A program made the translations under genes and the position numbers. Shown here in pieces: positions 48,397 through 64,000 of a stretch of 64,000 bases of DNA. How positions within the stretch are numbered: position 1 is the stretch's first letter; the number at the start of each line of letters is the position of its first letter. Location: positions 62,001 to 126,000 of the forward strand of contig NZ_FQZX01000001.1 of the NCBI RefSeq assembly GCF_900142175.1, given 5' to 3'. Under the pieces are notes generated by a model. That model was not told the DNA's origin, ran no database searches, and saw nothing but the letters and a program-made list of their open reading frames with translations. The stretch is from Maribacter aquivivus. GTDB lineage: Bacteria > Bacteroidota > Bacteroidia > Flavobacteriales > Flavobacteriaceae.

Positions 48397-48438
48397 CTCA
48401 TAACCCGAAGGTCGCTGGTTCGAGTCCAGTCCCCGCTA
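48397..48438 (+). other. tRNA-Met(CAU) 3' half, attachment site at the ICE right end
   Basis: The anticodon loop CTCATAA is followed by the 3' anticodon stem, variable loop, T arm (GCTGG-TTCGAGT-CCAGT) and acceptor strand CCCCGCT plus discriminator A. The upstream DNA cannot form the 5' half, so this is a partial copy, as made when an element integrates in a tRNA gene. Both integrases flank it. The complete tRNA should lie beyond the left end of the window. Confidence 0.82.
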
Positions 48439-48461
48439 CTAAGTTTAAAGTATTTAAAAAC

Positions 48462-48492
48462 AACGGTTTAGTTTTCGCTAAACCGTTTTTTT
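48462..48492 (+). terminator. tRNA terminator
   Basis: AACGGTTTAG (48462-48471), loop, CTAAACCGTT (48478-48487), then TTTTT. It follows the tRNA end by 23 bp, and the integrase gene on the right begins at the very end of its T tract. Confidence 0.88.
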
Positions 48493-49812: not shown

Positions 49813-50548
49813 AACCTCTTTGGAACTATTGTACAAGAACCTGATCTCAAAGCTGTGGGAAGAACTATTATTTTTCATCCCTGATAATGAAGTTTCAAAT
49901 GAATTCTTAGAAAACCATAAAGAAATAGAATTCGAAAAACTTCGTAATAAAATATTAGTGATAGATTATTATAAGGGGCCTACACGCTACGAAACAGGTA
50001 GGGACAATTACATGATAATACTTAAAGACAGCACATTAAAAAAAAGTACACGTCAATTATTAAATGCAAAAGCAAATTCCAATGCACAGGAATTTAATTA
50101 CATTCTAGAATTATATTTCGAGCAGGTTGAGTGCTTACATTTTATTACAAATTGGCTGAATAAAAATATAACCCAAGTACTACCTCAAGAGGACACTATT
50201 CTAGGTTTGTTTAAACTCCAATATAATTTTCACAAGTCACATTTTGAAACAATTCTTAAACAGTTTTATCCCGATATGCAATCTTTGCCGAAAGGTAATT
50301 TTAATATCGGAAAATCGGTAGAGTCATCTTTGCCTCATGTATCCAAACTTTTTTATACTAGGGATATACAAAATGTAATACCTGGAGTTTCAAATTTACA
50401 AGAAGAGCTGCATGAAAACCTTCCCACTTCTACAGATAAGAAAACACAGCGCAGCAAAAATAAAAAACTACCTCTTATTTCCGATTCTGAGGCAGAAGCG
50501 ATTTTATTAAAACGTATTTTCAATATTGATTCAAAAGTACTTAAATAA
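49799..50548 (+). CDS. Unknown protein coupled to the second integrase
   Basis: A 249-residue soluble, acidic and helical protein (MYMNKTSLELLYKNLISKLWEELL..., ECLHFITNWLNKNI) with no motif I recognise. The C-terminal part is basic (TDKKTQRSKNKKLPLI). It overlaps the integrase gene by 14 bp, so the two are co-translated. The role may be in recombination control of the second island, but this is a guess from position. Confidence 0.6.
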   Translation: MYMNKTSLELLYKNLISKLWEELLFFIPDNEVSNEFLENHKEIEFEKLRNKILVIDYYKGPTRYETGRDNYMIILKDSTLKKSTRQLLNAKANSNAQEFNYILELYFEQVECLHFITNWLNKNITQVLPQEDTILGLFKLQYNFHKSHFETILKQFYPDMQSLPKGNFNIGKSVESSLPHVSKLFYTRDIQNVIPGVSNLQEELHENLPTSTDKKTQRSKNKKLPLISDSEAEAILLKRIFNIDSKVLK

Positions 50549-50585
50549 ATTATACGTAAATTAAACGTTTAATTTACGTATAATT
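50548..50585. promoter_or_regulatory. 38-bp perfect palindrome touching a start codon
   Basis: Left arm AATTATACGTAAATTAAAC (50548-50566) and its exact reverse complement (50567-50585). The palindrome begins in the stop codon of the previous gene and ends at the base before the ATG at 50586. It contains two TACGTA words. It may be an operator or an RNA hairpin masking the start. Confidence 0.78.
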
Positions 50586-51014
50586 ATGACAAAAACTGAA
50601 ATTTGCAAGTATTGTGGTGGTGACTATGTTCCAAAAAGAAGAGGTGCGCAAAAGTTCTGTAGCAACTCTTGCCGTAGTTTAAACTGGAAAAACAACCAAC
50701 AGATTAAAGAATTGAAGGTACCAGATGTAAACACTATAGATGAGAAACCTGTTTTAGTACAAAAGCCGAGCTTTCATGAAAAAATGTCTTTAGCAGGAAT
50801 TGCAAATGCTGCCGCAGGAGCTGCTGTTACAGAAATAGCAAAGGATTTTGTAACACCTTATGCTAACAAACCTGCTACTAAAAAAGATATTGAAGATTTA
50901 AAAGCATTTCTTAAATCTCGTTATTTACCTATCTACAATTTAGGCAAAGATGTATATGATAGAATCCCATATTATGATGTCAAAACATGTAACATTATTT
51001 ACTTGAAGAGTTAA
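50586..51014 (+). CDS. Zinc-finger-like protein, unknown function
   Basis: A 142-residue protein with an N-terminal metal knuckle ICKYCGG...KFCSNSCRSLNWK (CxxC and CxxxC), resembling small Cys4 zinc fingers. The middle contains an Ala-rich stretch (LAGIANAAAGAAVTEIA). The end is charged, with no membrane helix clear enough to call. It follows a 38-bp palindrome directly. Inference: DNA- or RNA-binding protein of the second island. Confidence 0.6.
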   Translation: MTKTEICKYCGGDYVPKRRGAQKFCSNSCRSLNWKNNQQIKELKVPDVNTIDEKPVLVQKPSFHEKMSLAGIANAAAGAAVTEIAKDFVTPYANKPATKKDIEDLKAFLKSRYLPIYNLGKDVYDRIPYYDVKTCNIIYLKS

Positions 51015-51941
51015 AATAGAACAGACAAACTTCACTCATAAATATTTAAAAGCTTAAAAATACCAGAATTTTAAATCTCTATTTGCTGGTTAATGTTCCT
51101 ATATCTTGCTCTATGGTGTTCCGGATTTTTGGCATTCTACTCTCGGTAATTTTAAAAAAAAGCATACTTAAAAATAATATACTATTCTATAGAAACTTTG
51201 GAATTAAATTACAAATTAACATTCTCCGCACAAATTTAAAGCAGTTTTATAAGTATAGGTGGGGCATTAAAATATTGCGAAAAGCGCCATTAACATAGTT
51301 ATAGTTTTGCGAAAATAAAGTTCGAGCGAAACCGGTCGTTGCTGCACTTGAGTAAAAAAAATAATGAACCAGAAGAATCCTGTAGTATTTTATAAATGAT
51401 ACGTCTTAATTTTGAGGGTTTGATATGATTTAATAATACTGATTTTGATTTGAACCCTGTTTAAGTTTTTCATTTATGCTTTATTTTTTGATTTAAGACA
51501 AGGGAAGTATGAATTTGTTGATCTGTAAGTTTCGTTTAAAATATTTCGGAGCAATTCTCCTATTATCAAACTATAAATAATCTTCTTTATAGGAACTGAT
51601 AGAATAATTTTCTCAAATTCTCAAATGAATCAATGTGATGGTAAAGCGTATGACGCCATTAAAAAATACGCGATGCCTTAATATTCCGAAATTAGTTTAG
51701 AAATATTCAATAAAGGTACACTCTAAATGTGATGATTAAAATCAACGAAATAGGAAATACGGGCTTCAACCTTGCAATTGCACCTAAAAAGGATAGTTAT
51801 CTTATACTAAATGAAACGTTTCAACAAGGAAATCAGCTAAACTTATTTTAAATATACTATTACATTCTAGAATATGCTTTTAAATAAATGAAGCTAACTT
51901 AAGTAAATCGAATCCACGAATCAAACAGAAAATTTACAAAT
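51015..51941. other. 927-bp stretch with no convincing gene
   Basis: Only short frames occur. A 39-residue frame at 51732-51851 (MIKINEIGNTGFNLAIAPKK...) and an 18-residue minus-strand tail around 51065-51120 look like gene remnants. AT-rich throughout. I read it as decayed island DNA or an intergenic border between the island and the catabolic locus. Confidence 0.5.
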
Positions 51942-52901
51942 TTAAACGACTTTATTCCTCAACACCCCAATCCCCTCAATCTCTAATTCAACCTCGTCCC
52001 CAGGTTCTAATGGTCTATGAACCGAAAAGTTATTTTCAATAAGACTTCCCCATCCAACGGTACCACTACCTAAAATGTCACCAGGCATTAACTGAACATT
52101 ATTTTCTGAAGCTCTTTTTATCATTTGCGGAAAGGTCCAATACACGGTTTTATAATTGCCTTCACAGATGGTTTTTCCGTTTATTCGTGCAATCATTTTT
52201 AAATCGAAACGGCCATCAGTTGTTTGAGGCATTTGCAAATGCTCTGGATGCATTTCTCTTGAAATCGTACACCTATATTTCTCGAATTCATCTTTGGTAA
52301 CAATGCAAGGCCCAATGGCATTTGCAAAATCTTTGCCTTTATGCGGTCCAAGAGGCACGGTCATTTCCTGTCTTTGAATAGCTCTAGCGGTCCAATCATT
52401 AAATATGGTGTATCCAAAAATATAGTCATCGACATTTTCGACCTGAATATCTTTACCTTTCTTACCCATGATAACAGCCAGCTCTAACTCAATATCAAAC
52501 TTGGATTCCTTTTCTGGGCGCTTTATTTCAGCTTCTGGCCCATAAATCGCCTGATGATTGGTAAAGTAAAAGATAGGAATGTTATACCATTCTGGGCTAA
52601 CGGTATGTCCAAAAGACTTTGAAGCATTTAACATGTGCTCCTCAAAAGCAACATAATCTCTAAAACTTCTTGGATTCGTTAGTGGAGCCAATAGTTTTAC
52701 TTCTGATAATTGATAATGAGGTGCTAGGTTTTCTAAATTATTATCCTTTATTATTTTGAAATACGTTTCATGGTCATCAATAAAGCTTAACATATCATTT
52801 GGTAAACTGGCGTCCGCTTTTTGCATAGCAATTACACCATTGCCTTTTAACCAGCCAATTTTAACAGCTCCTATATTATTTTGAAAAGTAACTAATTTCA
52901 T
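51942..52901 (-). CDS. Fumarylacetoacetate hydrolase (FAH) family protein
   Basis: A 319-residue enzyme with the FAH fold: RDYVAFEEHMLNA, WYNIPIFYFTNHQAIYGP, the metal ligands in FDIELELAVIMG (Glu, Glu) and the Asp in YTIFNDWTARA, then NAIGPCIVT. FAH-family enzymes hydrolyse, decarboxylate or hydrate ring-cleavage products of aromatic degradation using Mg or Ca. It is the last gene of the minus-strand catabolic operon and would act on the product of the hydrolase/dioxygenase. The exact reaction is not deducible. Confidence 0.88.
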   Translation of the reverse strand: MKLVTFQNNIGAVKIGWLKGNGVIAMQKADASLPNDMLSFIDDHETYFKIIKDNNLENLAPHYQLSEVKLLAPLTNPRSFRDYVAFEEHMLNASKSFGHTVSPEWYNIPIFYFTNHQAIYGPEAEIKRPEKESKFDIELELAVIMGKKGKDIQVENVDDYIFGYTIFNDWTARAIQRQEMTVPLGPHKGKDFANAIGPCIVTKDEFEKYRCTISREMHPEHLQMPQTTDGRFDLKMIARINGKTICEGNYKTVYWTFPQMIKRASENNVQLMPGDILGSGTVGWGSLIENNFSVHRPLEPGDEVELEIEGIGVLRNKVV

Positions 52902-52916
52902 AACATTACTATTTTA

Positions 52917-54056
52917 TTAATGTGGTGCCATTAAAGTACCAACAGCCTTACCAATGACTTGACCAATATTTGCTCCTTCAGGAAGCGGTTTTCCTTCAAA
53001 CTCCAATAATTCCCATTCTGCGAGGGTTTCTGATGCATCTACAATCGCCATACATCGTTGGTGACGTCTTTTCATAAAGGCTGTGAAAGCTTTTTCAACA
53101 GTATCTGCCTTATCCAATTCCTCTGCTAAAACTACACCATCTTCAAGCGCCAATGCGGCTCCGGAGCCTAATTGCGGAACGGTTGCATGGGCACCATCAC
53201 CTATAACAATAGCTCTGTTTTTAAACCAAGGTTCTGGTAAATGACTTGCTTCTATTGGACGATAATTGACCAAATCTGGTTCTGTAATTTGAGGGATGAT
53301 GTCTTGGGCAATCTTAGCTGGAAATTCAGATAAATAATCTTTTAACATAGGCACATAGGCAGATTTCTCAATCCATGGGTTATCGGCTCCTTCAGCAGAC
53401 ACCAAGAACATATACATACTGTCATCAGACATTGGTATAAATCCAATTTTACTACGCTTTCCATAATACATATATGCTGTATCTAGGTCCTCATGCTTTT
53501 TAAAGGCATACCGCCAAACTGAAACACCCATATACTTTGGTTTAAAATCACCAAAAATCAATTTACGCATATCAGAATTTATACCATCTGAAGCGATTAA
53601 GATATCATAGGTTTTTTTAGTGTTATCCGTAAATGTTACGGTAACGTCATCTTTGTTGTTTTCGATATGGGTAACCGTAGTTCCCATTTTATAGTGAACA
53701 CCAAGTTTGATAGCCTTATCATACATGATTTCATGTAAGGTACGTCTTGAAATACCATTATGGCTAGGGTACTTCCCTATTGGTGGTGCTCCTGCAAGAC
53801 CAATAAAATGCCCTGTAGAAGTGTACATTTTTAATTGTCCGTAAGGATAACCTTGCTTCATGGTTTCATCAGCTAAGTCTAATTCATCCAATGCTCGAAG
53901 GGCATTCATTTGTTGAATAATTCCTACTCCATATACATTATACACATCTAGTCTTTCTGCTATTTCAACTTCAACACCCTTTTGGGCTAAAGCAATTGCA
54001 ACAGACTGACCTCCAATACCACCACCAACTACGAGTACCTTTTTTACTGCTGACAT
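52917..54056 (-). CDS. FAD-dependent aromatic monooxygenase (PHBH family)
   Basis: A 379-residue flavoprotein with the dinucleotide motif VLVVGGGIGGQSVAIALAQ (about 7-25), the DG motif DGINSDMRKLIFG (about 165-177) and the second FAD motif VIGDGAHATVPQLGSGAALALED (about 287-310). Group A flavin monooxygenases use NAD(P)H and O2 to hydroxylate aromatic rings, often with loss of a carboxyl. It lies 15 bp upstream of the FAH gene. It probably makes the dihydroxylated ring that the dioxygenase opens. Confidence 0.9.
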   Translation of the reverse strand: MSAVKKVLVVGGGIGGQSVAIALAQKGVEVEIAERLDVYNVYGVGIIQQMNALRALDELDLADETMKQGYPYGQLKMYTSTGHFIGLAGAPPIGKYPSHNGISRRTLHEIMYDKAIKLGVHYKMGTTVTHIENNKDDVTVTFTDNTKKTYDILIASDGINSDMRKLIFGDFKPKYMGVSVWRYAFKKHEDLDTAYMYYGKRSKIGFIPMSDDSMYMFLVSAEGADNPWIEKSAYVPMLKDYLSEFPAKIAQDIIPQITEPDLVNYRPIEASHLPEPWFKNRAIVIGDGAHATVPQLGSGAALALEDGVVLAEELDKADTVEKAFTAFMKRRHQRCMAIVDASETLAEWELLEFEGKPLPEGANIGQVIGKAVGTLMAPH

Positions 54057-54096
54057 TTTTAGAACTTTTAAAATTATTAACTATAGAAATAGACTA

Positions 54097-55212
54097 TTAG
54101 GCGTGAATTTTCTCTGCAATCCAATCGAACATGTCTAATGCAGGCATAAAATTGTCTACTTGACAATGCTGAGACCCACTTTCACCTTCTGGTACAATTT
54201 TCATTTTATGTTCACACGTTAGATGCTTTTCTAATGTTATTGCGTGTTCCACAAAATTCTGTTTATCACCACCACCATGCATAATGAATGTTGGCATAGA
54301 GATTTTTTCGGCAACACCGTTCTCTAAGGTGAAGCCTTCTAATTTTTTAAGAACAGCTTCATAACTATCAACACCCATAATATGTTGTACAATTTCAGCT
54401 AAAGGATGTTTCCCACTTCTACCTGCCCAAACAGAATAGTAAGACCAGACAGCCCCAAATACCATACATACTTTAAAACGAGGCTCAAATGCTGCACAAC
54501 GTGCTGCCATGTAACCTCCCATAGATACCCCTGCAATACCAACACTAGTAGTGTCAACTTCATCTTTCAAGTTTTCTAAAACCCAATCCAAAACAGCTGT
54601 ACCAGCAACATTATAATCATGTCTAGAGTGAATATGGTTTAAACGTAAAGCAGCTCCTTGACCTGGTCCGTCCATAGCTAACAAGGCAACACCTCTTTCC
54701 ATTAAATGGTCACCTATTCCAAAATAAAGTTCTTCAGCTAAACTATCTAAACCACCAAACATGACCATTACTGGTGGATTTTTCACGCCTTTTGGCTTAA
54801 AAAGATATCCTGGTAAAAAAGAACCTTCAAAAGGAACTTCCACCTGAATTGGTTTTTCTTCAAAATATTTGGTCGCCTTTATAAAAGCCTCTCTTGCTTT
54901 AAGGTAGGTCGGTATTTTTCGGTCATCTTGTAGATTCATAAAAAATTCCGCCGTGCGTAAATAATTAAATGCTCTTAAATAGGTTCGCCTAGCAGATACA
55001 AAAGCATTGTTCTTTTCATAATCTTCTGCCCAACCATAAACCTCATTACCTTTATTTAGCCAAGCTATATTAAAGGTTTCTCTATTATCTGGGTCAATAT
55101 TGCCCGCTGCTTCTAATATTTCTGCAAACTCGCCACCACCATAATGTGCTTGGGTCAATGCTCTATTAACTTGATAAGAAGGCATGTATTTGCCTGGAAA
55201 AAAATGCCACAT
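54097..55212 (-). CDS. Alpha/beta hydrolase (FrsA/DHPON-hydrolase-like, C-C or ester hydrolase)
   Basis: A 371-residue enzyme with an N-terminal helical domain (about 1-120) and an alpha/beta core: MVMFGGLDSLAEE, LLAMDGPGQGAA, the nucleophile elbow GVSMGGY, and FIMHGGGD with the acid; the catalytic His is likely in SQHCQVDNF. This layout resembles 2,6-dihydroxypseudooxynicotine hydrolase and FrsA-like esterases. In this operon it should cleave the ring-opened product or an ester. It starts 48 bp after the dioxygenase stop. Confidence 0.85.
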   Translation of the reverse strand: MWHFFPGKYMPSYQVNRALTQAHYGGGEFAEILEAAGNIDPDNRETFNIAWLNKGNEVYGWAEDYEKNNAFVSARRTYLRAFNYLRTAEFFMNLQDDRKIPTYLKAREAFIKATKYFEEKPIQVEVPFEGSFLPGYLFKPKGVKNPPVMVMFGGLDSLAEELYFGIGDHLMERGVALLAMDGPGQGAALRLNHIHSRHDYNVAGTAVLDWVLENLKDEVDTTSVGIAGVSMGGYMAARCAAFEPRFKVCMVFGAVWSYYSVWAGRSGKHPLAEIVQHIMGVDSYEAVLKKLEGFTLENGVAEKISMPTFIMHGGGDKQNFVEHAITLEKHLTCEHKMKIVPEGESGSQHCQVDNFMPALDMFDWIAEKIHA

Positions 55213-55260
55213 AATACGTGTGTGTTTTAAAAATTGTTATTGCTACTTAAATCAAGTAGC

Positions 55261-56253
55261 CTAAATATCTACAGGTTTCACTGTACCATCATCAGAAAGT
55301 CCAAGTTTTTTACCTTTCGCCATTTCTGCAAACGGATTTACAGAGCCCCATGCATCATTTGGATTATCTTTTAAATAATGAACATCTAAATGATCTGGTG
55401 CAAACACTAATCTAGCACAAGCATAGAATTCAAATAAAATTCCACTTCCAGGATCAACAATGTAGATAAAGAAACCTTCATCTGCCTTGTGCCTTGTTGG
55501 TGCACCCATAACACTCTTATACCCCTTTTCTATAAAATAGTCTAAAGCTAAAAGTACCTCTTCACGACTATCTACATTCCAACAAATATGATTTAAAACT
55601 GCTTGATTTGGTTCTATATTCGGGTCTGTAAAGATGGCAATGTCATGTGATAAGTTTGCAAGGGTATGTAAACCTCCAATTGGGGGTATTTCATCTGAAA
55701 TACGAATTTCATCTGGATTTTTGAATCCTAAAGCTTTCCAAAATGCTTTTTCAGCAGGGTAAGCACCTTTTGATACCATATATGTTACGTGGTCAAATCT
55801 TCTTGGATTAGCACCTTGTAAACGATTGCTAGCATATCGATCGGCATACACACTACCACGTTCCCCTTCTTCACGAAGCCATTGTACATCCCAAAAAACC
55901 TCATGCATATGGCCTTCAGGAGATTGAAATTTAAAAGCTTTACCATGACCTAGGTCACCATCATACCAACCTCTGCCTGCACCAATACTTTCCAAATATT
56001 CAACAGCTTCTTCTAAAGCCTCTGGGCTATCCGCTCTCCACCCAATATGTCCAAGTCCAGACTTGTCGCTTTGCGTTAATTTTAAGGTATGATGAAAATA
56101 ATCTCCCCAAGCTCTTAAATAAACCGAACCTTCTTCTCTTCCTGTTATATCCATTCCAACGATATCACCAAAAAAATGTACCGATTTCTCAAGGTCTTTG
56201 GTTAAGACCTCAACATGGGCCATTTGCGAAAAATAATGTGGGTTTTTTGCCAT
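55261..56253 (-). CDS. Extradiol ring-cleavage dioxygenase (two-domain VOC, type I)
   Basis: A 330-residue enzyme with two VOC modules. The first (about 10-125; HVEVLTKDLEKSVHFFG, GLGHIGWRAD) and the second (about 152-285) both look intact. The second has the metal triad: H155 in FDHVTYMV, H222 in LNHICWNV and E275 in LFEFYA, as in catechol 2,3-dioxygenases that use Fe(II) or Mn(II). It opens a catechol-type ring next to the hydroxyls. It is the first gene of the operon ending with FAH; a direct repeat lies upstream. Confidence 0.9.
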   Translation of the reverse strand: MAKNPHYFSQMAHVEVLTKDLEKSVHFFGDIVGMDITGREEGSVYLRAWGDYFHHTLKLTQSDKSGLGHIGWRADSPEALEEAVEYLESIGAGRGWYDGDLGHGKAFKFQSPEGHMHEVFWDVQWLREEGERGSVYADRYASNRLQGANPRRFDHVTYMVSKGAYPAEKAFWKALGFKNPDEIRISDEIPPIGGLHTLANLSHDIAIFTDPNIEPNQAVLNHICWNVDSREEVLLALDYFIEKGYKSVMGAPTRHKADEGFFIYIVDPGSGILFEFYACARLVFAPDHLDVHYLKDNPNDAWGSVNPFAEMAKGKKLGLSDDGTVKPVDI

Positions 56254-56410
56254 TTCTATAAATTTTATTATTCTTTCTTTAGTATTACAAATTTACTTTA
56301 TACTTACTCAAATTCTGAATCATTAAGAGGGATGTACTATTCTAAATCAATTATATTTATATTTATTACAAGGTTTATTTGGTTTAAATTATTCATTTTA
56401 AGCTAAAATC

Positions 56411-56449
56411 TGCTTAAGACAAGAAGGTTACTGATTTAGTGCTTAAGAC
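56411..56449 (-). promoter_or_regulatory. Direct repeat TGCTTAAGAC, possible AraC-type operator
   Basis: Two copies at 56411-56420 and 56440-56449, 29 bp start to start, so on the same face of the helix. They lie 158-196 bp before the dioxygenase gene, in the gap 56254-56535. Direct repeats are the typical target form of AraC-family proteins. Confidence 0.5.
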
Positions 56450-56535
56450 TAATTTTACATATTAGGTCTCAATTACACTGAACTATTATCAATTATCTAT
56501 TTATGCTTTTCGATAATTAAACCTTTTCGTAAAAC

Positions 56536-57168
56536 CTATTTTATTTGCTCGTATTGACTCAATTCCATTCCACTTCCAATAGGCAATAATACTGAAGAGA
56601 AAACTCCTGTATTACGTATTCGGTTTTGATAGCGTTTTGTTTCTTCAATTGATTGTGTCGGGAATATCATATTATCTGCAACCACCCAAGCCTTATTTTT
56701 TAATTTAGGATAAAATAATTCAAAGCAAGGCAGGTATAATTCTTTCCAAACATCTACTAAAACAAAATCAAAAGTCTCTTTTGCTTCTTTCATAAGCGTT
56801 AAAGCATCACCCACTCTAAAATCAACATATTTCGAAAGACCCGCTTCGTATAATCTATGTTTAGCGTATGTTACTTTGGTTTCATCGGCCTCTAACGTAA
56901 TTACAATGCCGTCATTTTCTCTTGCTGCTTCTGCCAACCATAGGGTAGAATAGCCATAAGATGTTCCTATTTCTAATATCGTTTTCGATTTAGCTGATTT
57001 TAATAAGGTATTCATAAAAACGGCAGCATCTTCACCTACCGATAACAAAAACTCATCACGCCGTTTCATACCTTCAACAACAGGCAAAGACTTCATAATC
57101 TCATCCTCTGACTGCATGCGCTCATCATAAGCCGCTAAAACTTGAAGAAATTTCGAATCCTTTGTCAT
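56536..57168 (-). CDS. SAM-dependent O-methyltransferase (family 3, CCoAOMT-like)
   Basis: A 210-residue Rossmann methyltransferase with ILEIGTSYGYSTLWLA (motif I), VITLEADETKVTYA, VGDALTLM, FVLVDVWKELY (Asp, metal site) and VVADNMIF (Asp-Asn). This is the cation-dependent catechol O-methyltransferase type. It could methylate catechol intermediates, or remove excess of them. It lies 6 bp after the DUF3861 gene stop. Confidence 0.82.
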   Translation of the reverse strand: MTKDSKFLQVLAAYDERMQSEDEIMKSLPVVEGMKRRDEFLLSVGEDAAVFMNTLLKSAKSKTILEIGTSYGYSTLWLAEAARENDGIVITLEADETKVTYAKHRLYEAGLSKYVDFRVGDALTLMKEAKETFDFVLVDVWKELYLPCFELFYPKLKNKAWVVADNMIFPTQSIEETKRYQNRIRNTGVFSSVLLPIGSGMELSQYEQIK

Positions 57169-57174
57169 TCCTTT

Positions 57175-57471
57175 TTATTCCTCGGATTTTAATTTTTTCA
57201 TCATAGCACCAAAAGCTGGTCTGAAATCTTCAAATAGTGGATTGTCTTTGTTCTTTAACATAACTTCACTAAAAAGTTTAAGTCCAATTGCAAATTCTAC
57301 CGAATCTTGTTCCGTTTTAAAACGGTTTCGTTTTTTCATACGTTCGATAATATTGAATATATTATCATGGTTGCCAAATTCAAATTCAATAGGTTCATAG
57401 ATTTTGTGATCTGGTCTTAGTAATTCTAAAAGCTCTAGTTTTAATTTATATTTATTTGCTTTCTTTTCCAT
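57175..57471 (-). CDS. DUF3861 family protein
   Basis: A 98-residue basic protein (YKLKLELLELLRPDHKIYEPIEFEFGNHDNIFNIIERM, ending FEDFRPAFGAMMKKLKS), which fits the DUF3861 family. No known function. The gene is between the MFS gene and the O-methyltransferase on the same strand, so it should be co-transcribed. Confidence 0.72.
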   Translation of the reverse strand: MEKKANKYKLKLELLELLRPDHKIYEPIEFEFGNHDNIFNIIERMKKRNRFKTEQDSVEFAIGLKLFSEVMLKNKDNPLFEDFRPAFGAMMKKLKSEE

Positions 57472-57570
57472 AATCTATGTGTTTCAGAACTAATTGATTT
57501 TTTTGCATTTACGAACAGTTTCTCTCTTAACTAAAATGCCTAGGCAGCTAATATTTCATAAACTATTTAT

Positions 57571-58782
57571 CTACTTGCTTACGCTCTCAACAAACACTTT
57601 TCCCTTGGTTTCCTCTAATTTGGATAAGAAAAATAAGGCCAATACTGCCAATGCTGCAGCAACCCATAAAAATGCTGATTCATCAAAAATATCTGAAAGT
57701 GCTCCAGATACGGCAGGAATAATTACACCACCAACAATTTCTGCAACCGCAGTTACAAAACCAATTGCTTTTGCTTTTAAATGATTAGGAACGGCTTCAG
57801 AAGGCACTATAGCAGCAACTAGAGGTATTGCACCTACCATAGCGTAACTTAAAAACATTGCTGGTAAATGAATACCAGACCCATTTAGAAAATATACTGC
57901 AAAAGGATAGAATATACCCAGACCAACAGCGATATAAAGTGCTTTTTTTCTTCCAATCTTGTCAGAGATACCTGGAAAAAATAAAGATGAAATAAGCATC
58001 GCAACACCTAATAGACCCATGGTTTTTTGCATATCACCAGCAGACATTCCTTGTACATCAGTAAAGTATTTGGTAATGAAAGGTATGGTAGCAAACCACC
58101 AACCAAAGACGCAGCAAGCTAAAGCAGTTCCCCATTTTATATTCTTGTAAGCCCAAATTTCTTTTAGTGCAAAACCAGTATTGTTTTCAGCGCCCCTACT
58201 TTCTGTAGTTGATTTTTTAAGATAGAAAGCCGCAATTAGCCCTAGTGCCAAACCAGGAACACCAGCAATATAAAAGGCTGTGCGCCAACCCATATTTTCA
58301 GCTATTTGAATCAAAATTACGGGTGCTAAAATAGAACCAAATAAAGCTCCACCAACAGCTTGTAAAATGCCTACATTAAGACCAAGTCTACTAGGTGTAG
58401 ATTCTCGTTCCACAAAGACTTGCGCCAATGGAATTACCGGACCTTCTGCCAAACCCATAATTAAACGAGCCACCAATAAGGTCCCAAAACCAATAGCCAT
58501 ACCTGAACCAAATGAACAGACAGAAAAAATAACGATGGCAATTAGAAACGTGATTTTGTTTTTGTTTTTAGACTCTGACCATGCTGTAGTATAATAACTT
58601 GAAAAAGCCCAAGCCAAAGACAATACTCCTGCTAAGAGTCCTATTTGAGTATTATTTAAATTAAGGTCTTTGGCTACGAAGGGAACTAAATAATTTAGCG
58701 CTAACCTGTCAAAAAATAGTACTCCAAAGGTCAAGGCCATTAAGCTAACTATTCCATTTTCGTAAGAGAAAAATTTTTTCAT
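57571..58782 (-). CDS. Major facilitator transporter (ACS/AAHS-like)
   Basis: A 403-residue protein with 12 hydrophobic helices. It opens FLYFDRLALNYLVPF-like (FGVLFFDRLALNYLVPFVAKD), then NLNNTQIGLLAGVLSLAWAF, RLIMGLAEGPVIPLAQ (the loop/TM4 signature) and GISDKIGRKKALYIA between the halves. MFS of this type often transport aromatic acids or other organic anions. It likely brings the desulfated aromatic compound across the inner membrane. It lies 12 bp after the sulfatase gene. Confidence 0.87.
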   Translation of the reverse strand: MKKFFSYENGIVSLMALTFGVLFFDRLALNYLVPFVAKDLNLNNTQIGLLAGVLSLAWAFSSYYTTAWSESKNKNKITFLIAIVIFSVCSFGSGMAIGFGTLLVARLIMGLAEGPVIPLAQVFVERESTPSRLGLNVGILQAVGGALFGSILAPVILIQIAENMGWRTAFYIAGVPGLALGLIAAFYLKKSTTESRGAENNTGFALKEIWAYKNIKWGTALACCVFGWWFATIPFITKYFTDVQGMSAGDMQKTMGLLGVAMLISSLFFPGISDKIGRKKALYIAVGLGIFYPFAVYFLNGSGIHLPAMFLSYAMVGAIPLVAAIVPSEAVPNHLKAKAIGFVTAVAEIVGGVIIPAVSGALSDIFDESAFLWVAAALAVLALFFLSKLEETKGKVFVESVSK

Positions 58783-58794
58783 TGCTACAATAAT

Positions 58795-60420
58795 TTAATG
58801 TGGTGATTTTCTAAACTGTGTTTTTTTACTCATTTCCTCAGACCATGGAATAACTCCATTATTTTTTGCCCATTCATTGTAAATAGCATCCATTTTTGCG
58901 ATGGTTTCAGGTTGTGTAGCTGCTATATCGTTTGATTCGGTTCTATCGGTGGAAAGGTCATACAATTCCCACTCTTTGTTGTATTGATGAACACCTTTTA
59001 AATCGCCAAGCCATACCGCGCGATCACCAAACCACTCAAAACATATAGGTTGATCTCTAGTCCAATCTTCGCCTTGTAATAGAGGTAAAAAACTTTCACC
59101 AACAAGAGGGTTAGGTGTTACACCATTATAGCTTTCAGGATATTCAATATCGGCAATATCTAATAATGTTGGCATGATATCTACAAGATGCGAACCTCCC
59201 TTTAAAATCTTACCAGATACTTTTTGGCCTGGATAACGTATGATAAATGGAGTTGCTGTACCACCTTCATAAGGAGATGATTTGTAACTTCTAAGTGGAC
59301 TATTTGAAACTTGAGCCCAGTTTTTTGAATATGCCTCCATTGAACCGGCAGTACCTACAGGGCCTTCGTTTCGTTTAACGGTAAAAGGCATTTTACCAAC
59401 ATCCATATTTTCAGCACCATTATCGGATAGGAAGATTATTACGGTATTATTCAACTGTCCTGTTGTGCCTAAATAGTTTAATAGTTTCCCTATATTTTGG
59501 TCTAGGTTATCTACCATGGCGGCATAAACTTCCATTTTCAAAGTCCACTCGCTTTTTTCTTCTGCGTTCAGGCTATCCCATGCTGGTAATGATTTGTCCT
59601 TAAATGGATTCCATTCCTCTTCTGCCAAACCTAGTTTTTTAACATTTTCAAAACGTAGCTTGCGAAGCTCATCCCAACCTGCATCATATTTACCTTTATA
59701 TTTTGCAATGTCTTCTGGCTTTGCATGTAAAGGCCAATGTGGTGCGTTATAGGCCATGTATAAAAAGAATGGTTTTTCTTTTTCTTTGTTGGTAACAAAA
59801 TCAATGGCCCTGTTAGTCAATTCATCCGTTAGGTAAAAGTCTTCTTTATCAATATTGTAAACCTCGTTGCCTTCATATAAAAATGCTGTAGAAGGCGGGC
59901 CCTTCAAAAGTGGCTTGGTATCAAAATAACTTTCCCCACCATCTAAAAATCCAAAAAAGTTATCAAAACCACGTTGTATTGGCCAATGTGGTTTATCGTT
60001 CCCAACATGCCATTTTCCCGTCATATAGGTAGAATAGCCCCCATTTTTAAATACTTCGCCTAAGGTTAAAGATTCTTTATTAAGATAGCCTTCATAGCCA
60101 GGCAGACCAAAGTCTTCATTAAAAAAGCCTATACCTGCTTTGTGCGGATATTGACCTGTGAGTAGACTTGAACGTGAAGGGGCGCAAATAGTATTTGTGT
60201 AAAATCTTTCTAACCGTGTTCCTTCAGATGCAAGACGGTCAAGACTGGGAGTGTTTATTTCCGATCCGTAATTGCCCAGGTCTGAAAAGCCCATATCATC
60301 GGCCATAATTAAAACAACGTTTGGCTTTTGATCGGTTTGAACAATTTCTTTCTTATCTATAGCACCATGTTTGCAGCTCAAAAAGAAAAGCGTCATAATA
60401 CCTAAAACTAGTATTCTCAT
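58795..60420 (-). CDS. Sulfatase lipoprotein (arylsulfatase-like, S1 family)
   Basis: A 541-residue protein. Lipoprotein signal with Cys 16 (LFFLSC). The metal site is MADDMGFSDLGNYG (D41, D42), and the formylglycine motif is ICAPSRSSLLTGQYP (Cys 79, to be converted by an anaerobic-independent FGE-type enzyme not seen in this window). Then GKWHVGN, IIFLSDNGAE and CFEWFGDRA. Family knowledge: type I sulfatases hydrolyse sulfate esters of aromatic or sugar substrates. The surrounding aromatic genes favour an aryl sulfate, though algal sugar sulfates cannot be ruled out. Probably anchored to a membrane. Confidence 0.9.
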   Translation of the reverse strand: MRILVLGIMTLFFLSCKHGAIDKKEIVQTDQKPNVVLIMADDMGFSDLGNYGSEINTPSLDRLASEGTRLERFYTNTICAPSRSSLLTGQYPHKAGIGFFNEDFGLPGYEGYLNKESLTLGEVFKNGGYSTYMTGKWHVGNDKPHWPIQRGFDNFFGFLDGGESYFDTKPLLKGPPSTAFLYEGNEVYNIDKEDFYLTDELTNRAIDFVTNKEKEKPFFLYMAYNAPHWPLHAKPEDIAKYKGKYDAGWDELRKLRFENVKKLGLAEEEWNPFKDKSLPAWDSLNAEEKSEWTLKMEVYAAMVDNLDQNIGKLLNYLGTTGQLNNTVIIFLSDNGAENMDVGKMPFTVKRNEGPVGTAGSMEAYSKNWAQVSNSPLRSYKSSPYEGGTATPFIIRYPGQKVSGKILKGGSHLVDIMPTLLDIADIEYPESYNGVTPNPLVGESFLPLLQGEDWTRDQPICFEWFGDRAVWLGDLKGVHQYNKEWELYDLSTDRTESNDIAATQPETIAKMDAIYNEWAKNNGVIPWSEEMSKKTQFRKSPH

Positions 60421-60554
60421 AATGTATTTTTTAATTTTTAAAATATATAACAGCCTTAAGTATATTCAGATGTTTTAAGTGACCAGAGATACTGAATCAT
60501 AAGAAATCCTGTATCTCTAGTTTAAAACACTTACTTAAAAAGCTAAAACAAAAC

Positions 60555-63428
60555 TTAGAATCTATAGGTCGCTGTCAAGAAATAAGCTCTTGGCATACTT
60601 CCTTGGGTCGAAAATATAGCATTAGGATTGTTGGCGATAAAATCTGGCGGAAAACCATCTCTGTTTAGTGCAGCAGGGAAACCTCCAGGTCCTTGCCATC
60701 CTAAAATCCCATATTTATCCAAGACGTTGTTAATGTTCAATTGTAAACCGAATTTTTTAGAAAAATCATAACCGAAGGCTAAATCTACACTACCGAATGC
60801 AGGTAATAGAAATGAATTGGGCACGTTAGCCTGTCTTGCTCCCATATAACTATAGTTTAAAGAACTATAGAATTTTTCACCGTTGTAAATTGGGTTAATA
60901 TTGAATATTACGTTTGCACTGTTATCTGCTTCGTTGCCCGAGTATTCAATAATGGTATCGTCTGCTGGCCCATCTCTTCCTTCATTCCAAGTCGTGTATT
61001 TGTCGGCTTTAGCATATTGAATTACCGCATTACTTCTTACCATCCATTTATCGGTTAAATTAATGGTTGTTTCTAACTCAAAACCAAGAGTTGTATACTC
61101 GGCAAATTGAAAAGGAGGTGAATACCTCGTACCATCTTCATTTGAAAATGTTTGAATATTAGGAACATTATTCAGGTTGCTGTAAAAAGGTGTTGCTACC
61201 AATTGTAGTTTCTCGGTATTTACTTTATAACCTATTTCAAATTGTGTTATTTCTTCCAGTAATGCCGGTGTATTTTCTACCAGTGCATCATCATTTAAAT
61301 CAAGGTAGAAGAAAGTCGATGGTGCTTTATTACCCCGAGCAAATCTGGCATAAATTGCTTGCTGGTCACTGAATTTATAGTTAAGACCTGCGGTATAAGA
61401 AAAACTATTTAATTTATAATCGTAATTAACAGGGGCGCCTGCGGTACCACCACCGTTATCCCAAAGGGTTAGCGGATTTCCATCAAGCCCACCAAAAGAT
61501 GGATCATTTTGTCGTGGATTTGGAACACCGATAGAATTAAAACCTTTAGAGGTTACATCCTCATATCGCATTCCATAATCTAATGTAAGTTTTTCTGTAA
61601 TCTTCCAATTATGACCAAAGAAGAGCGCAAAAATACCTTGTGTGGTTTCACCATCATCAGAACCAGTCCATCCAACATTCATAAAACCTTCTGGACTAGT
61701 AACATCATAGGTTTGACCATTGTCTGCGTCTAACGTAATTTGGGCAGGTACCGGTTGGTTTTGAATTAAACCACCGCTTAGCCCCATACCTTTGCTCCAG
61801 TTGGTAATATCTAATTTAGAACGACTATAAAAACTACCTAAATTAAAACTACTTTTCTCTGTTTTTTTAGTAAACACCAATTGATTGGCAATTTCATTTC
61901 TGTCAATATCTTGATAGAACAATGGCATAAACAAAAGCGAATTTGGTTGAATGTTTGATCCAGGAAAATTATTGTTAGGCCCTGGTGTAAGAATTGCTGG
62001 AGGTCCAGGGACGGCATTTGGACCTACATTTGGCGCTAAATTAACAGTACCAAATTCCTGTCCTGTTCTCGGATCTGCAAAACGATATGTTCCTGTTCTG
62101 GCAGGGTTTGGACCAGCAAACAAACCTGGTATCGCATAAAAAAGAAAACTGGTAGTGCTTATTGGCGTAACCACTGCTGTAGCGTTTCTTTCATCATCTT
62201 TTCTTGAATATTTAAAATCGTTCTTTAAAGAAAAACCATTGCCTAAATCCTGTTTCCAATTAAAACCAATTGAACGGTCTATGTTGTGTAATAAATCTGT
62301 AGAATTGATGGTTCTTGTACCCGCTTCATTAAAAGGTACTTCCATTGAGAAATCATATAAAGCATAAGAATCGTATTTAGAAAAGCCATCTGCAATTTGT
62401 GGGTCTTGCCAATTGGTAGATGGTATAAACGCCATTCTATCATTCTTATCATTTAGATATTTTAAATTCAATTGAAAGAATCCTGTTTTATATTTTTTTA
62501 CCAAGTTAGCTCTTATCTGACCACCTTTGTTTACAGGATATCCACGATCTCTTGCGCCGTCCGATTGGCGGAAGAAACCTCCAACATTATAAGTCCAACC
62601 ATTACTCATTGGTCCGCCAATATTAAAGTCAGCCCTGTAATATGGGTTTTTTCCATTGCCTTCTAGACCATACTTAGCACGTACTTCACCAGCAAATTTA
62701 TCACCTCCGGTTTTAGAAACGTAATTGAAAATTCCGCCTGGGGCGTTTGCACCAAGAATAGATGCGGTACCACCTCTAACAGCTTCTACTCTTGCCGTCA
62801 TAGCATCAGCTCTCAAAAATAAATCTGGAAATAATTCCACATTTGTAACAGGTAAACCATCCTCTTGCAAGGATACATATCTATACCCATTAATATTATC
62901 AATTGAGTTTGCCGAAAGTCCTCTTGAATAAACCGAGTTCCAAATTTCTCCCCGTGCTTGGTTTACAAATACCCCCGGTATATTTTTCAATAAATCCGCT
63001 GAACTCGTAGGTGCAACTCTTGCCAATTGTTTGGCACCGATAGTTGTAATCGCCACAGATGCATCCATACGACTACGTGAATCAAAAACACCAGTGACAA
63101 TAACATCATCTAATTGTGTGGCATCTTCAGATAACATAACGGACAATGGTTGGGATTGAGGTACGGATACCGTAATTTTTTGTCTTGAAAATCCAACGTA
63201 GGAAACAATTAATTGATATTCTCCAGAATCCAAACCACTAAGGGTAAATTTTCCGTCAAAATCTGTCATTGTGCCATTTTTTGTGCCTTCAATCAAAACA
63301 GAGGCACCAGGTAGAACGGCACCAGCTTCGTCTTGTACTTGACCAGAAATTTCACCCGTTTGTGCCTGGGTAAAACCAATCAATAAGAAGCCTAAACAAG
63401 TTAAAAGTAGTCTAGCGTGATTTTTCAT
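60555..63428 (-). CDS. TonB-dependent receptor of the catabolic locus
   Basis: A 957-residue outer-membrane receptor. Signal peptide (ends FTQAQ), carboxypeptidase-like domain (about 25-105; GAVLPGASVLIEGTKNGTMTDFDG), plug (RSRMDASVAITTIGAKQLARVAP..., VYSRGLSANSIDNINGYRY) and barrel ending FLTATYRF. It resembles catecholate/hydroxamate siderophore-type or small-molecule receptors more than SusC, since no SusD gene follows. It likely takes up the sulfated substrate. Its promoter region (63429-63718) has an operator-like palindrome and a direct repeat. Confidence 0.9.
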   Translation of the reverse strand: MKNHARLLLTCLGFLLIGFTQAQTGEISGQVQDEAGAVLPGASVLIEGTKNGTMTDFDGKFTLSGLDSGEYQLIVSYVGFSRQKITVSVPQSQPLSVMLSEDATQLDDVIVTGVFDSRSRMDASVAITTIGAKQLARVAPTSSADLLKNIPGVFVNQARGEIWNSVYSRGLSANSIDNINGYRYVSLQEDGLPVTNVELFPDLFLRADAMTARVEAVRGGTASILGANAPGGIFNYVSKTGGDKFAGEVRAKYGLEGNGKNPYYRADFNIGGPMSNGWTYNVGGFFRQSDGARDRGYPVNKGGQIRANLVKKYKTGFFQLNLKYLNDKNDRMAFIPSTNWQDPQIADGFSKYDSYALYDFSMEVPFNEAGTRTINSTDLLHNIDRSIGFNWKQDLGNGFSLKNDFKYSRKDDERNATAVVTPISTTSFLFYAIPGLFAGPNPARTGTYRFADPRTGQEFGTVNLAPNVGPNAVPGPPAILTPGPNNNFPGSNIQPNSLLFMPLFYQDIDRNEIANQLVFTKKTEKSSFNLGSFYSRSKLDITNWSKGMGLSGGLIQNQPVPAQITLDADNGQTYDVTSPEGFMNVGWTGSDDGETTQGIFALFFGHNWKITEKLTLDYGMRYEDVTSKGFNSIGVPNPRQNDPSFGGLDGNPLTLWDNGGGTAGAPVNYDYKLNSFSYTAGLNYKFSDQQAIYARFARGNKAPSTFFYLDLNDDALVENTPALLEEITQFEIGYKVNTEKLQLVATPFYSNLNNVPNIQTFSNEDGTRYSPPFQFAEYTTLGFELETTINLTDKWMVRSNAVIQYAKADKYTTWNEGRDGPADDTIIEYSGNEADNSANVIFNINPIYNGEKFYSSLNYSYMGARQANVPNSFLLPAFGSVDLAFGYDFSKKFGLQLNINNVLDKYGILGWQGPGGFPAALNRDGFPPDFIANNPNAIFSTQGSMPRAYFLTATYRF

Positions 63429-63451
63429 TTTAGTTAGTTTAAGTTGGATAA

Positions 63452-63471
63452 AAAATGATATTTATCATTTT
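63452..63471 (-). promoter_or_regulatory. 20-bp perfect palindrome upstream of the TonB receptor gene
   Basis: AAAATGATA-TT-TATCATTTT at 63452-63471, 24 bp before the start at 63428. It looks like a repressor operator (partly like a Fur box, ATGATA/TATCAT) or a short leader hairpin. Confidence 0.6.
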
Positions 63472-63672
63472 AATATTTAAATTTTATTAATATATCAAAA
63501 ATGATGTCTACAAATTTCTAATATAATAATGGTATTTGTGAATCAAAAAAAGAACTATACTATTCAAAATCAAATCTTTTTGATGATTTTTTAATTTAGA
63601 TTTTGTTTAAACACAATCCAAATAGATATAATTTTTCTACAAAATCATTTAGCAGAATCGATACCGGAAAGT

Positions 63673-63712
63673 GGCAAAATTTAAAATGGGAATAAAGGGC
63701 AATTTAAAATGG
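63673..63712 (-). promoter_or_regulatory. Direct repeat next to the AraC gene, possible AraC-type operator
   Basis: GGCAA(AA)TTTAAAATGG occurs at 63673-63689 and 63698-63712; the core TTTAAAATGG copies are 23 bp apart. The site is 245 bp before the TonB receptor start and directly after the stop of the AraC-type gene. Confidence 0.5.
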
Positions 63713-63718
63713 AATACA

Positions 63719-64000
63719 CTAGTTGGTTTGTGCGTATTCTTTTGGAGAAAGTCCGGTTTGTTTTTTAAAAAAACGCGCAAAATTACTTGGGGTCTGATTA
63801 CAAAGTTTCACGGCGATTTCCGAGATGTTAAGTTCAGAATGTTTGATTAATGTTTTTGCTTCTAAGATGAGCATTTCTTTAAGAAGATCCTGTGCGGTTT
63901 TATCAATTGCGGTTTTAACACATTTATTAAGGTAGTTTGGTGTAACATTCAATAAATCTGCATAGTCGGTTATATTTTGATAATCATAAATATGTTTTGC
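63719..64000 (-). CDS. AraC-family transcriptional regulator, C-terminal part (5' end beyond window)
   Basis: The last 93 residues are visible, open to the window edge. They form the two helix-turn-helix units of AraC/XylS: first YADLLNVTPNYLNKCVK, second ISEIAVKLCNQTPSNFARFFKKQTGLSPKEYAQTN with the GLSPKEY signature. The frame continues upstream (AKHIYDYQNI...), so the gene is not short. It lies just before the receptor gene on the same strand and is probably the activator of the catabolic locus, sensing its substrate through a missing N-terminal domain. Confidence 0.85.
   Translation of the reverse strand, partial: AKHIYDYQNITDYADLLNVTPNYLNKCVKTAIDKTAQDLLKEMLILEAKTLIKHSELNISEIAVKLCNQTPSNFARFFKKQTGLSPKEYAQTN

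Follow-up and report, generated by a model that had tools for sequence, protein, structure and literature searches.

The 64,000-nucleotide stretch of Maribacter aquivivus DNA analysed here (the window) covers positions 62,001-126,000 of contig C1, in a host genome of 4.58 Mb and 11 contigs. Between positions 51942 and 64000 it holds a gene cluster that is probably a cassette for the utilisation of sulfated flavonoids. Nine protein-coding genes and an AraC-type regulator gene, all open frames on the minus strand, are transcribed in the order AraC, TonB-dependent receptor, sulfatase, MFS transporter, DUF3861 protein, O-methyltransferase (OMT), extradiol dioxygenase (XDO), alpha/beta hydrolase (ABH), FAD monooxygenase (FMO) and FAH-family hydrolase (FAH), with gaps of 290, 134, 12, 99, 6, 282, 48, 40 and 15 bp from AraC to FAH (range 6-290 bp). 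An earlier note on this DNA had listed these families on one strand, without the DUF3861 gene, and the open frames and Pfam bear its list out (families were called by Pfam, subfamilies by NCBIfam curated cut-offs).

That note had left the substrate open. We narrow it to sulfated flavonoids as the best candidate, because the core of the locus resembles a flavonoid-type A-ring pathway. We define five core families, XDO, ABH, FMO, FAH and a cyclase-family hydrolase (CYC), and four of them (ABH, FMO, FAH and CYC) recur in operons of Pseudomonadota plasmids that we call fde-like from their architecture and one JGI label; fde and ifc, described below, are the flavonoid A-ring pathways already known. 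The same core, free of the sulfatase, also stands beside glycosidases or a C-deglycosidase of flavonoid-type glycosides, which supports the flavonoid reading. Our best reading is a flavonoid A-ring meta-cleavage pathway with a different dioxygenase and a receptor-sulfatase front end, and our best guess at the substrate is flavone 7-sulfates of the seagrass kind.

Sulfated flavonoids have been described on the eelgrass leaf surface and discussed as an antimicrobial defence (PMC6389981); among the matches listed, no title or abstract describes bacterial genes for their use. If our reading is right, the locus would be a first candidate gene set for bacterial use of sulfated flavonoids. It would provide marker genes for this trait in marine flavobacteria, account for the pairing of a sulfatase with vanillate and protocatechuate enzymes in such strains, and predict 8-hydroxyflavone, an aryl-pyranone, oxaloacetate and acetoacetate as intermediates. 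On the same reading, a sulfatase beside a TonB receptor need not signal a polysaccharide.

Conservation of the cassette and its core enzymes

A profile scan with the dioxygenase alignment over genome contigs confirmed 96 relatives and returned 80 loci, 78 of which hold XDO or ABH and are the core loci considered below (18 of them under 18 kb long). Within the fetched DNA, all five core families are present in 36 core loci and all except CYC in 22 more. Nine core loci bear a sulfatase, those of Maribacter stanieri, Arenibacter echinorum, Zobellia russellii, Maribacter sedimenticola, Aurantibacter crassamenti, Muricauda sp., Winogradskyella echinorum, Polaribacter sp. and Pseudozobellia sp.; together with the host and genomes G227 and G061, the sulfatase cassette is found in 12 genomes (G075 is counted as locus L019). 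The genes that the earlier note had grouped are conserved together across genera, and their whole order, CYC-AraC-TonB receptor-sulfatase-MFS-DUF3861-OMT-XDO-ABH-FMO-FAH, recurs in seven genomes (the host, L016, L017, L018, L019, L020 and L026), with a cupin gene inserted in L018 and L019. L050 and G227 keep this order minus OMT alone, G227 also carrying an inserted VanA-like gene; in L030 the order runs up to the contig end, again with a VanA-like insertion, and L023 and G061 show a more divergent arrangement. OMT occupies the same position in seven of the nine named sulfatase loci (L016-L020, L026 and L030) and is missing from L050, L023 and also G227.

Two features of the cassette deserve separate mention. 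The interval between MFS and DUF3861, which holds the cupin in L018 and L019, contains in G227 and L030 a second VanA-like Rieske oxygenase (31-33% identical to VanA), and has the appearance of an accessory slot whose genes trim the aglycone. OMT and DUF3861 (56536-57471) accompany the sulfatase cassettes with no evident role in breakdown for either, and DUF3861 is also found in glycosidase loci of Flavobacterium and of a Flavobacteriales metagenome-assembled genome (L028, L038, L048 and L077).

Within the host's family, the dioxygenase occurs at E <= 1e-30 in 4 of 299 genomes, the host included, indicating an accessory locus. When front ends are mapped on a maximum-likelihood tree of XDO (77 rows), 2 changes suffice for the sulfatase label, shuffled labels averaging 8.4 and none of 500 shuffles being as low. 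The glycosidase label requires 9 changes (0 of 500 as low), and the C-deglycosidase label 8 (79 of 500 as low), so the latter is not clustered. Judging by this tree, the sulfatase loci appear to be few in origin and the other front ends to have changed more often.

The dioxygenase contains two PF00903 stretches (two VOC domains) and scores 212.5 bits against TIGR03211, the catechol 2,3-dioxygenase equivalog, under its cut-off of 320.2. The metal ligands named in the earlier note, H155, H222 and E275, are invariant in 27 of 27 aligned rows (the window protein and 26 relatives picked from 120 listed), and because this 2-His-1-Glu triad is invariant we rejected a non-catalytic VOC role. The best solved structure for ABH is 2jbw (E 3e-24, residues 47-367); the nearest solved relatives of FAH are the unnamed hydrolase 4qku and fumarylacetoacetases; and CYC is nearest to isatin hydrolases (E 1.3e-7), enzymes of hydrolytic ring opening.

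Front ends and a proposed route

Among solved structures the sulfatase matches 7all (E 3.7e-106) and 1hdh (E 9.6e-99), 7all being slightly closer by score. In a sulfatase tree, the window protein clusters with the other core-linked sulfatases, Pseudomonas aeruginosa AtsA (entered as the 4cxs variant chain) and BT4683 in a single clade with support of 1.000, and the 13 other sulfatases of the host genome fall outside it; which of AtsA and BT4683 is the nearer partner has support of just 0.506. AtsA is described as an S1_4 arylsulfatase (PMC5066984) and BT4683 as an S1_4 3S-galactose sulfatase (PMC10154612) with the PDB code 7ALL (PMC12421950), and by grouping with 1hdh and 7all the window sulfatase belongs to S1_4. 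The earlier note had named a grouping with sugar sulfatases only as a refutation; the clade instead holds both an arylsulfatase, AtsA, and a galactose-3-sulfatase. A long WAQ-containing loop is common to the window sulfatase and AtsA and absent from 7all, and the residue directly before the catalytic Cys is Ile in the window sulfatase and Arg in 7all. We take the window protein to carry a CAPSR motif and an LSC lipobox, both identified by eye. The host genome has four FGE-family matches.

The TonB receptor scores 110.6 bits against TIGR04056 (SusC), far under the cut-off of 368.25, and no SusD, and hence no SusC/SusD pair, was found among the nine window proteins scanned by Pfam. Over 954 positions the receptor shares 52% identity with one that stands next to a GH1/GH43 core locus (L106); the best other match within the host genome is 36% identical over 331 residues. 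Homologues of the MFS protein, 62-69% identical, occur in 13 sulfatase-free loci, each with a glycosidase match (at least 50% identity in 12 of the 13), and the host genome has no further MFS match at E<=1e-10. Such conservation between the window and glycosidase loci is expected if the MFS protein carries a shared aglycone, and we propose it as the aglycone uptake protein.

To describe the other front ends, we clustered unassigned neighbour genes and checked one representative per cluster by Pfam (SDR was named by eye). Clusters of an uncapping type comprise GH3 (18 and 3 loci), GH106 alpha-L-rhamnosidase (9), GH43 (9), GH1 (6), GH35/42 (6) and GH2 (4); the remaining ones are SDR (40), histidinol-dehydrogenase-like (28), cupin (13) and GMC oxidoreductase (4). 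The C-glycoside deglycosidase beta subunit PF19906 is present in 10 loci, with its TIM-barrel partner in the same 10. Both deglycosidase subunits are found in 10 of the 78 core loci, the sulfatase in 9, and a glycosidase match to the representatives in 35 at >=30% identity or 26 at >=50%. Among 296 Bacteroidota genomes drawn separately, PF19906 was found in two, both among the four dioxygenase holders (host included); it lies 4.4 kb from the dioxygenase in G334 and on a different contig in G487. The histidinol-dehydrogenase-like enzyme, usually accompanied by an SDR (L037, L044 and others, also L098), occurs among sulfatase loci in G061 alone and possibly acts on flavanols or dihydroflavonols. 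C-glycoside-deglycosidase-like genes were seen in Bacteroidota and Deinococcota (L021, L049, L057, L069, L090 and L097); a 2021 survey of C-deglycosidases names Actinobacteria, Proteobacteria and Firmicutes (PMC8563793).

Sulfatase and glycosidases can also occur together. In G061, from the host's family, one 40-kb stretch holds a sulfatase, GH106, GH1, GH43, the core, pca genes and vanAB, in the order GH106, FAH, FMO, ABH, XDO, SDR, OMT, esterase-like, cupin, DUF3861, MFS, TonB receptor, AraC, sulfatase, GH43, GH1, CYC, SDR, histidinol-dehydrogenase-like, AraC, PcaH, PcaG, PcaB, VanA, VanB and PcaDC (GH106 59% identical to the representative, sulfatase 58%). G227 combines the sulfatase cassette with van and pca genes and a GH3. 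Because both genomes hold a sulfatase plus glycosidases, we dropped strict mutual exclusion of the two; on this gene content they seem to do the uncapping for one aglycone pathway, either in place of each other or jointly.

Outside Bacteroidota, Deinococcus aetherius (L097) has in one run a deglycosidase-type isomerase with DUF6379, a GMC oxidoreductase, VOC, cyclase, FAH, hydrolase and FAD oxidoreductases. The hydrolase shares 64% identity with its counterpart in the Burkholderia fde-like operon, and the VOC protein 37% with the window XDO. No core neighbourhood was found in L093 and L094 (Armatimonadota) or L095 (Thermus), the full core was not seen in Rhizobium SL42 (L099) or Variovorax RA8 (L096), and blast found the hydrolase alone of the core in Rhodococcus (L101). 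Paraburkholderia (L100) was read by blast alone, and Roseomonas (L105), with a short monooxygenase frame, was excluded from the argument.

We infer the order and regiochemistry of every reaction in the following route, as well as the substrate and the direction of transport. The general scheme of the earlier note (receptor, periplasmic sulfatase, MFS uptake, hydroxylation, ring opening and hydrolysis) gains support from the conserved order, the triad and the sulfatase grouping, all at the level of sequence. The TonB receptor would import the sulfated compound, the S1_4 sulfatase would desulfate it in the periplasm, and the aglycone would enter through the MFS protein. FMO, the proposed A-ring hydroxylase, would then act at C8, beside the freed 7-OH; the extradiol dioxygenase would open the ring between C8 and C8a; and ABH, the proposed C-C acyl hydrolase, would cut the acyl bond C4a-C5, giving oxaloacetate and a 4-hydroxy-6-aryl-2-pyranone. 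The cyclase-family hydrolase would open this pyranone, and FAH would split the resulting diketo acid, a 3,5-dioxo-5-arylpentanoate, to yield acetoacetate and, from the B-ring, a benzoate (4-hydroxybenzoate, protocatechuate or methoxylated forms). Finally, 4-hydroxybenzoate, protocatechuate and vanillate or isovanillate would pass to PobA, PcaGH and VanAB, and acetoacetate to the CoA-transferase and thiolase.

The placement of the two cuts draws on the ifc pathway of Variovorax V35, in which IfcA hydroxylates the isoflavone C8 and a stable intermediate, X3, is 2-hydroxy-5-(4-hydroxyphenyl)-4H-pyran-4-one (PMC11069340). X3 retains C2, C3, C4, C4a, C8a and the B-ring, which suggests cuts at C8-C8a and C4a-C5 in ifc; X3 would be the isoflavone counterpart of the aryl-pyranone proposed here. 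In a 5,7-dihydroxyflavone C5 bears an oxygen, so the same cuts would give a ketone-linked oxaloacetate unit, and by analogy this ketone-heteroaromatic bond would be of the type cut by 2,6-dihydroxypseudooxynicotine (DHPON) hydrolase, the closest solved relative of ABH. Zostera (marina) reportedly contains sulfates of luteolin, apigenin, diosmetin and chrysoeriol, with free, 4'-methoxy or 3'-methoxy B-rings (PMC6389981, PMC7916139). OMT and VanAB may form a shield, the B-ring catechol being methylated during A-ring cleavage and the benzoate demethylated afterwards.

More broadly, and with more doubt than assurance, we suggest that the core loci form a class of modular polyphenol utilisation loci that spans several phyla and has so far gone unrecognised, in which one core would convert flavones to oxaloacetate, acetoacetate and a benzoate and would have been joined repeatedly to different uncapping modules: a sulfatase in marine flavobacteria, O-glycosidases in other Bacteroidota, and a C-glycoside deglycosidase in Bacteroidota, Bacillota and Deinococcota. 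The possible OMT/VanAB shield belongs to this wider reading.

Gene features, neighbourhood and horizontal spread

Features of the locus, with window positions and the matches behind each call.
Feature	Position	Strand	Evidence and remarks
Flank with tyrosine-recombinase-like gene, 3,545 bp, abutting FAH	48397..51941		Pfam integrase matches below curated cut-offs
FAH-family C-C hydrolase (FAH), 319 aa	51942..52901	-	PF01557 E 3.7e-54
Group A FAD monooxygenase (FMO), 379 aa	52917..54056	-	PF01494; NCBIfam PRK06847 394 bits, cut-off 372
Alpha/beta hydrolase (ABH), 2,6-dihydroxypseudooxynicotine hydrolase type, 371 aa	54097..55212	-	FrsA-like PF06500; 2jbw
Type I (VOC) extradiol ring-cleavage dioxygenase (XDO), 330 aa	55261..56253	-	PF00903, TIGR03211, triad
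Class I (COMT-like) O-methyltransferase (OMT), 210 aa	56536..57168	-	PF01596 E 1.4e-19
DUF3861 protein, 98 aa	57175..57471	-	PF12977 E 2e-29
MFS transporter, 403 aa	57571..58782	-	PF07690
Formylglycine-type sulfatase, S1_4 kind, lipoprotein-like N-terminus, 541 aa	58795..60420	-	PF00884
TonB-dependent receptor, 957 aa	60555..63428	-	PF00593 + PF07715
AraC-type regulator, 303 aa in full, gene cut by window end	63719..64000 (true end 64630; L003:18719-19630)	-	PF12833 E 4.8e-15
Cyclase-family hydrolase (CYC)	outside window, 24 bp before AraC		PF04199

Past the right end of the window, at a distance of 1.6-18 kb, come VanA, VanB, Pca genes and PobA. Divergent from CYC are a VanA-type Rieske oxygenase (PF19112), a reductase and an MFS protein, followed at 8.6-17.2 kb of L004 by a second AraC-like gene, PcaH, PcaG, PcaB, a PcaD-PcaC fusion, 4-hydroxybenzoate 3-monooxygenase (PobA), 3-oxoacid CoA-transferase and PcaF. 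PcaH, PcaG, PcaB, PcaDC and PcaF exceed curated equivalog or exception cut-offs; PobA is above its subfamily cut-off and under its equivalog cut-off, and for VanA no NCBIfam entry matches at 1e-40. G075, G227 and G061 likewise carry VanAB and pca genes, and G075 and G227 PobA, while in Hymenobacter monticola (L106) the core is directly followed by pcaH, G, B, D and C and 4-hydroxybenzoate 3-monooxygenase. Behind pcaF the host has a GH3 remnant (L004 17313-17966; pieces of 49 and 173 residues, the middle missing), and at the corresponding place after PcaF G227 has a full-length GH3 (L133 1336-3597; 59% over 762 residues).

Nucleotide identity to the M. stanieri cassette is 96.6-100% per gene, against 91.9% for rpoB. 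In Arenibacter, XDO, OMT, MFS, FMO and DUF3861 are 97.2-97.9% identical, the sulfatase 82.9% and ABH 85.2%, with rpoB at 82.0%; Aurantibacter and Zobellia present a similar patchwork of gene identities. Cassette identities that are patchy and above rpoB fit horizontal transfer with later recombination, by which several cassettes would have moved between marine genera. Identity falls below rpoB for all eight genes in L023 and for most genes in G061, L050 and G227, and these loci accordingly give no sign of recent whole-cassette transfer. Compared with L017, L018 and L020, host C1 113942-125428 is a mosaic in which some genes are 93-98% identical and their neighbours 78-85%.

The 3,545-bp flank that abuts FAH is 99.9% identical in M. 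stanieri (L016 14313-17857) and 98.1% in Zobellia russellii (L018 14302-17846), and may be a mobile element that carries the cassette or forms its mobile border. It contains two further genes (249 and 142 aa) and a 38-bp piece that matches in reverse too and thus seems palindromic. Beside it, on the opposite strand at 47024-48229, is a second integrase-like gene of 401 aa, named by eye.

Rival substrates and comparison with known pathways

ABH, VOC, Rieske, FMO, cyclase and FAH proteins are encoded together on plasmids of Burkholderia anthina (L102), Diaphorobacter (L103), Azospirillum (L104) and Roseinatronobacter (L107), and the window proteins are 32% (ABH), 33-36% (FMO), 40-44% (CYC) and 25-27% (FAH) identical to their counterparts there. 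The low FMO figure counts against a flavonoid role for the locus, and so do several other results. The window XDO has no blastp match to the fde-like VOC proteins at 1e-8 and is not orthologous to them. No Rieske partner was found by tblastn with the L102 and L104 proteins in the 39-kb host stretch searched (L003/L004). In 28 of the 78 core loci none of the front-end gene types looked for was found; 10 of the 28 are shorter than 18 kb. Deletion of a DHPON-hydrolase-like gene in the ifc strain left daidzein degradation unaffected, and IfcA homologues are reported in Proteobacteria alone (PMC11069340).

A rival substrate is another sulfated phenol, such as zosteric acid, a sulfated coumarin or xanthone, a phlorotannin sulfate or a bromophenol sulfate, handled by the same enzymes with a non-flavonoid aglycone. 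We consider this unlikely. It would suit a dioxygenase that is a general relative of catechol 2,3-dioxygenase, and the habitats of the cassette strains, which we take to be mostly algae, sea urchins and sediment and not seagrass, also speak for it and against a flavonoid of seagrass origin. The GH106 rhamnosidase and C-deglycosidase neighbours, together with the four fde-like families, point to flavonoids instead, and established pathways for zosteric acid need no A-ring module. C-deglycosylation enzymes are, on the other hand, described as taking xanthone and anthraquinone glycosides too (PMC8563793).

Quite unlikely, in our judgement, is a sulfate on the sugar of a flavonoid glycoside (a glucoside 2''-sulfate, for example), with a carbohydrate sulfatase acting first and glycosidases in the wider locus or elsewhere finishing the uncapping. 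The best PDB match, the 3S-galactose sulfatase 7all, runs counter to an aryl sulfate, and with glycosidases in the wider loci it makes a sulfated glycoside possible. Among the four sulfatase genomes read over at least 35-40 kb, G061 and G227 have glycosidases (GH106, GH1 and GH43 with the sulfatase; GH3 after the pca genes) and the host has its GH3 remnant, a further count against aryl sulfates; the G227 GH3 and the host remnant are what added weight to this alternative. In G075, the part of the wider locus that was read contains no glycosidase, and the remaining 8 of the 12 were read at most +/-10 kb. Within +/-10 kb, however, eight of the nine named sulfatase loci have no glycosidase match at >=30% identity (the ninth, L023, has a 32% GH3 match, and L020 a 29% GH1 match), and in the host stretch read the GH3 is a mere remnant. 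The AtsA-like WAQ loop and the Ile in place of the pre-Cys Arg of 7all, a possible sugar-binding residue, also favour an aryl sulfate. That a sulfated-polysaccharide locus merely chances to lie beside aromatic genes, or that the sulfatase scavenges sulfate, is highly improbable. Flavobacteriia do have many polysaccharide sulfatases, and the host genome has 14 sulfatase matches, 13 above cut-off; yet 11 of the 14 lie at C1:1.93-2.03 Mb, far from the window sulfatase, which is separated from the MFS gene by 12 bp and accompanies the core from one genus to the next. Because SusD is absent beside a receptor far under the SusC cut-off and the sulfatase is remote from the sulfatase-rich region, we rejected a polysaccharide locus, and sulfate is abundant in the sea, which argues against scavenging. 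A sulfated flavonoid stays our preferred substrate.

Set against known systems, this flavonoid reading is closest to the fde naringenin degradation operon of Herbaspirillum seropedicae and the fde-like plasmids, which resemble the window locus in a DHPON-type hydrolase, FAH and cyclase present together, in a VOC protein with aligned H-H-E ligands, and possibly in their FMO. The window FMO and that of L102 (535 bits) both pass PRK06847, a broad subfamily; a JGI protein labelled naringenin degradation protein FdeE (P0360) shares 67% identity with the L102 FMO over its full length. The window locus differs in its VOC subfamily, in having no Rieske partner in the stretch searched, and in its TonB receptor and sulfatase front end. 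Its XDO and the fde-like VOC proteins share a profile match limited to the C-terminal half (probability 96.5, H-H-E ligands aligned), and with this match alone beside the blastp result we ruled out XDO as a direct orthologue of FdeC-like proteins. The L102 and L104 Rieske proteins match 6 of 93 records, all Pseudomonadota plasmids. FdeE is described as partnering with the Rieske carrier FdeD (PMC8552027), and fde products as feeding protocatechuate and pca, with an fde-pca operon link reported (PMC11303751).

The ifc cluster is likewise similar in its monooxygenase, glyoxalase-type dioxygenase (IfcB, 65.8% identical to FdeC), DHPON-hydrolase-like protein and cupins, and differs in that IfcA is isoflavone-specific and that the source, as consulted, names no sulfatase for ifc (PMC11069340). 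The window locus has no cupin; a cupin matching the fde-like one at 33-36% occurs in 13 of the 80 loci. AtsA (1hdh) and BT4683 (7all) share one clade with the window sulfatase, and we know of no ring-cleavage locus around either. Oxidative A-ring fission itself has reportedly been seen before: Jeffrey et al. are said to have described it in 1972 for dihydrogossypetin in Pseudomonas, with oxaloacetate and a lactone as products. Finally, the C-deglycosidase core loci of Deinococcus aetherius (L097) and Neobacillus (L087) have the same five core families as the window locus, with a C-deglycosidase where the window locus has its sulfatase.

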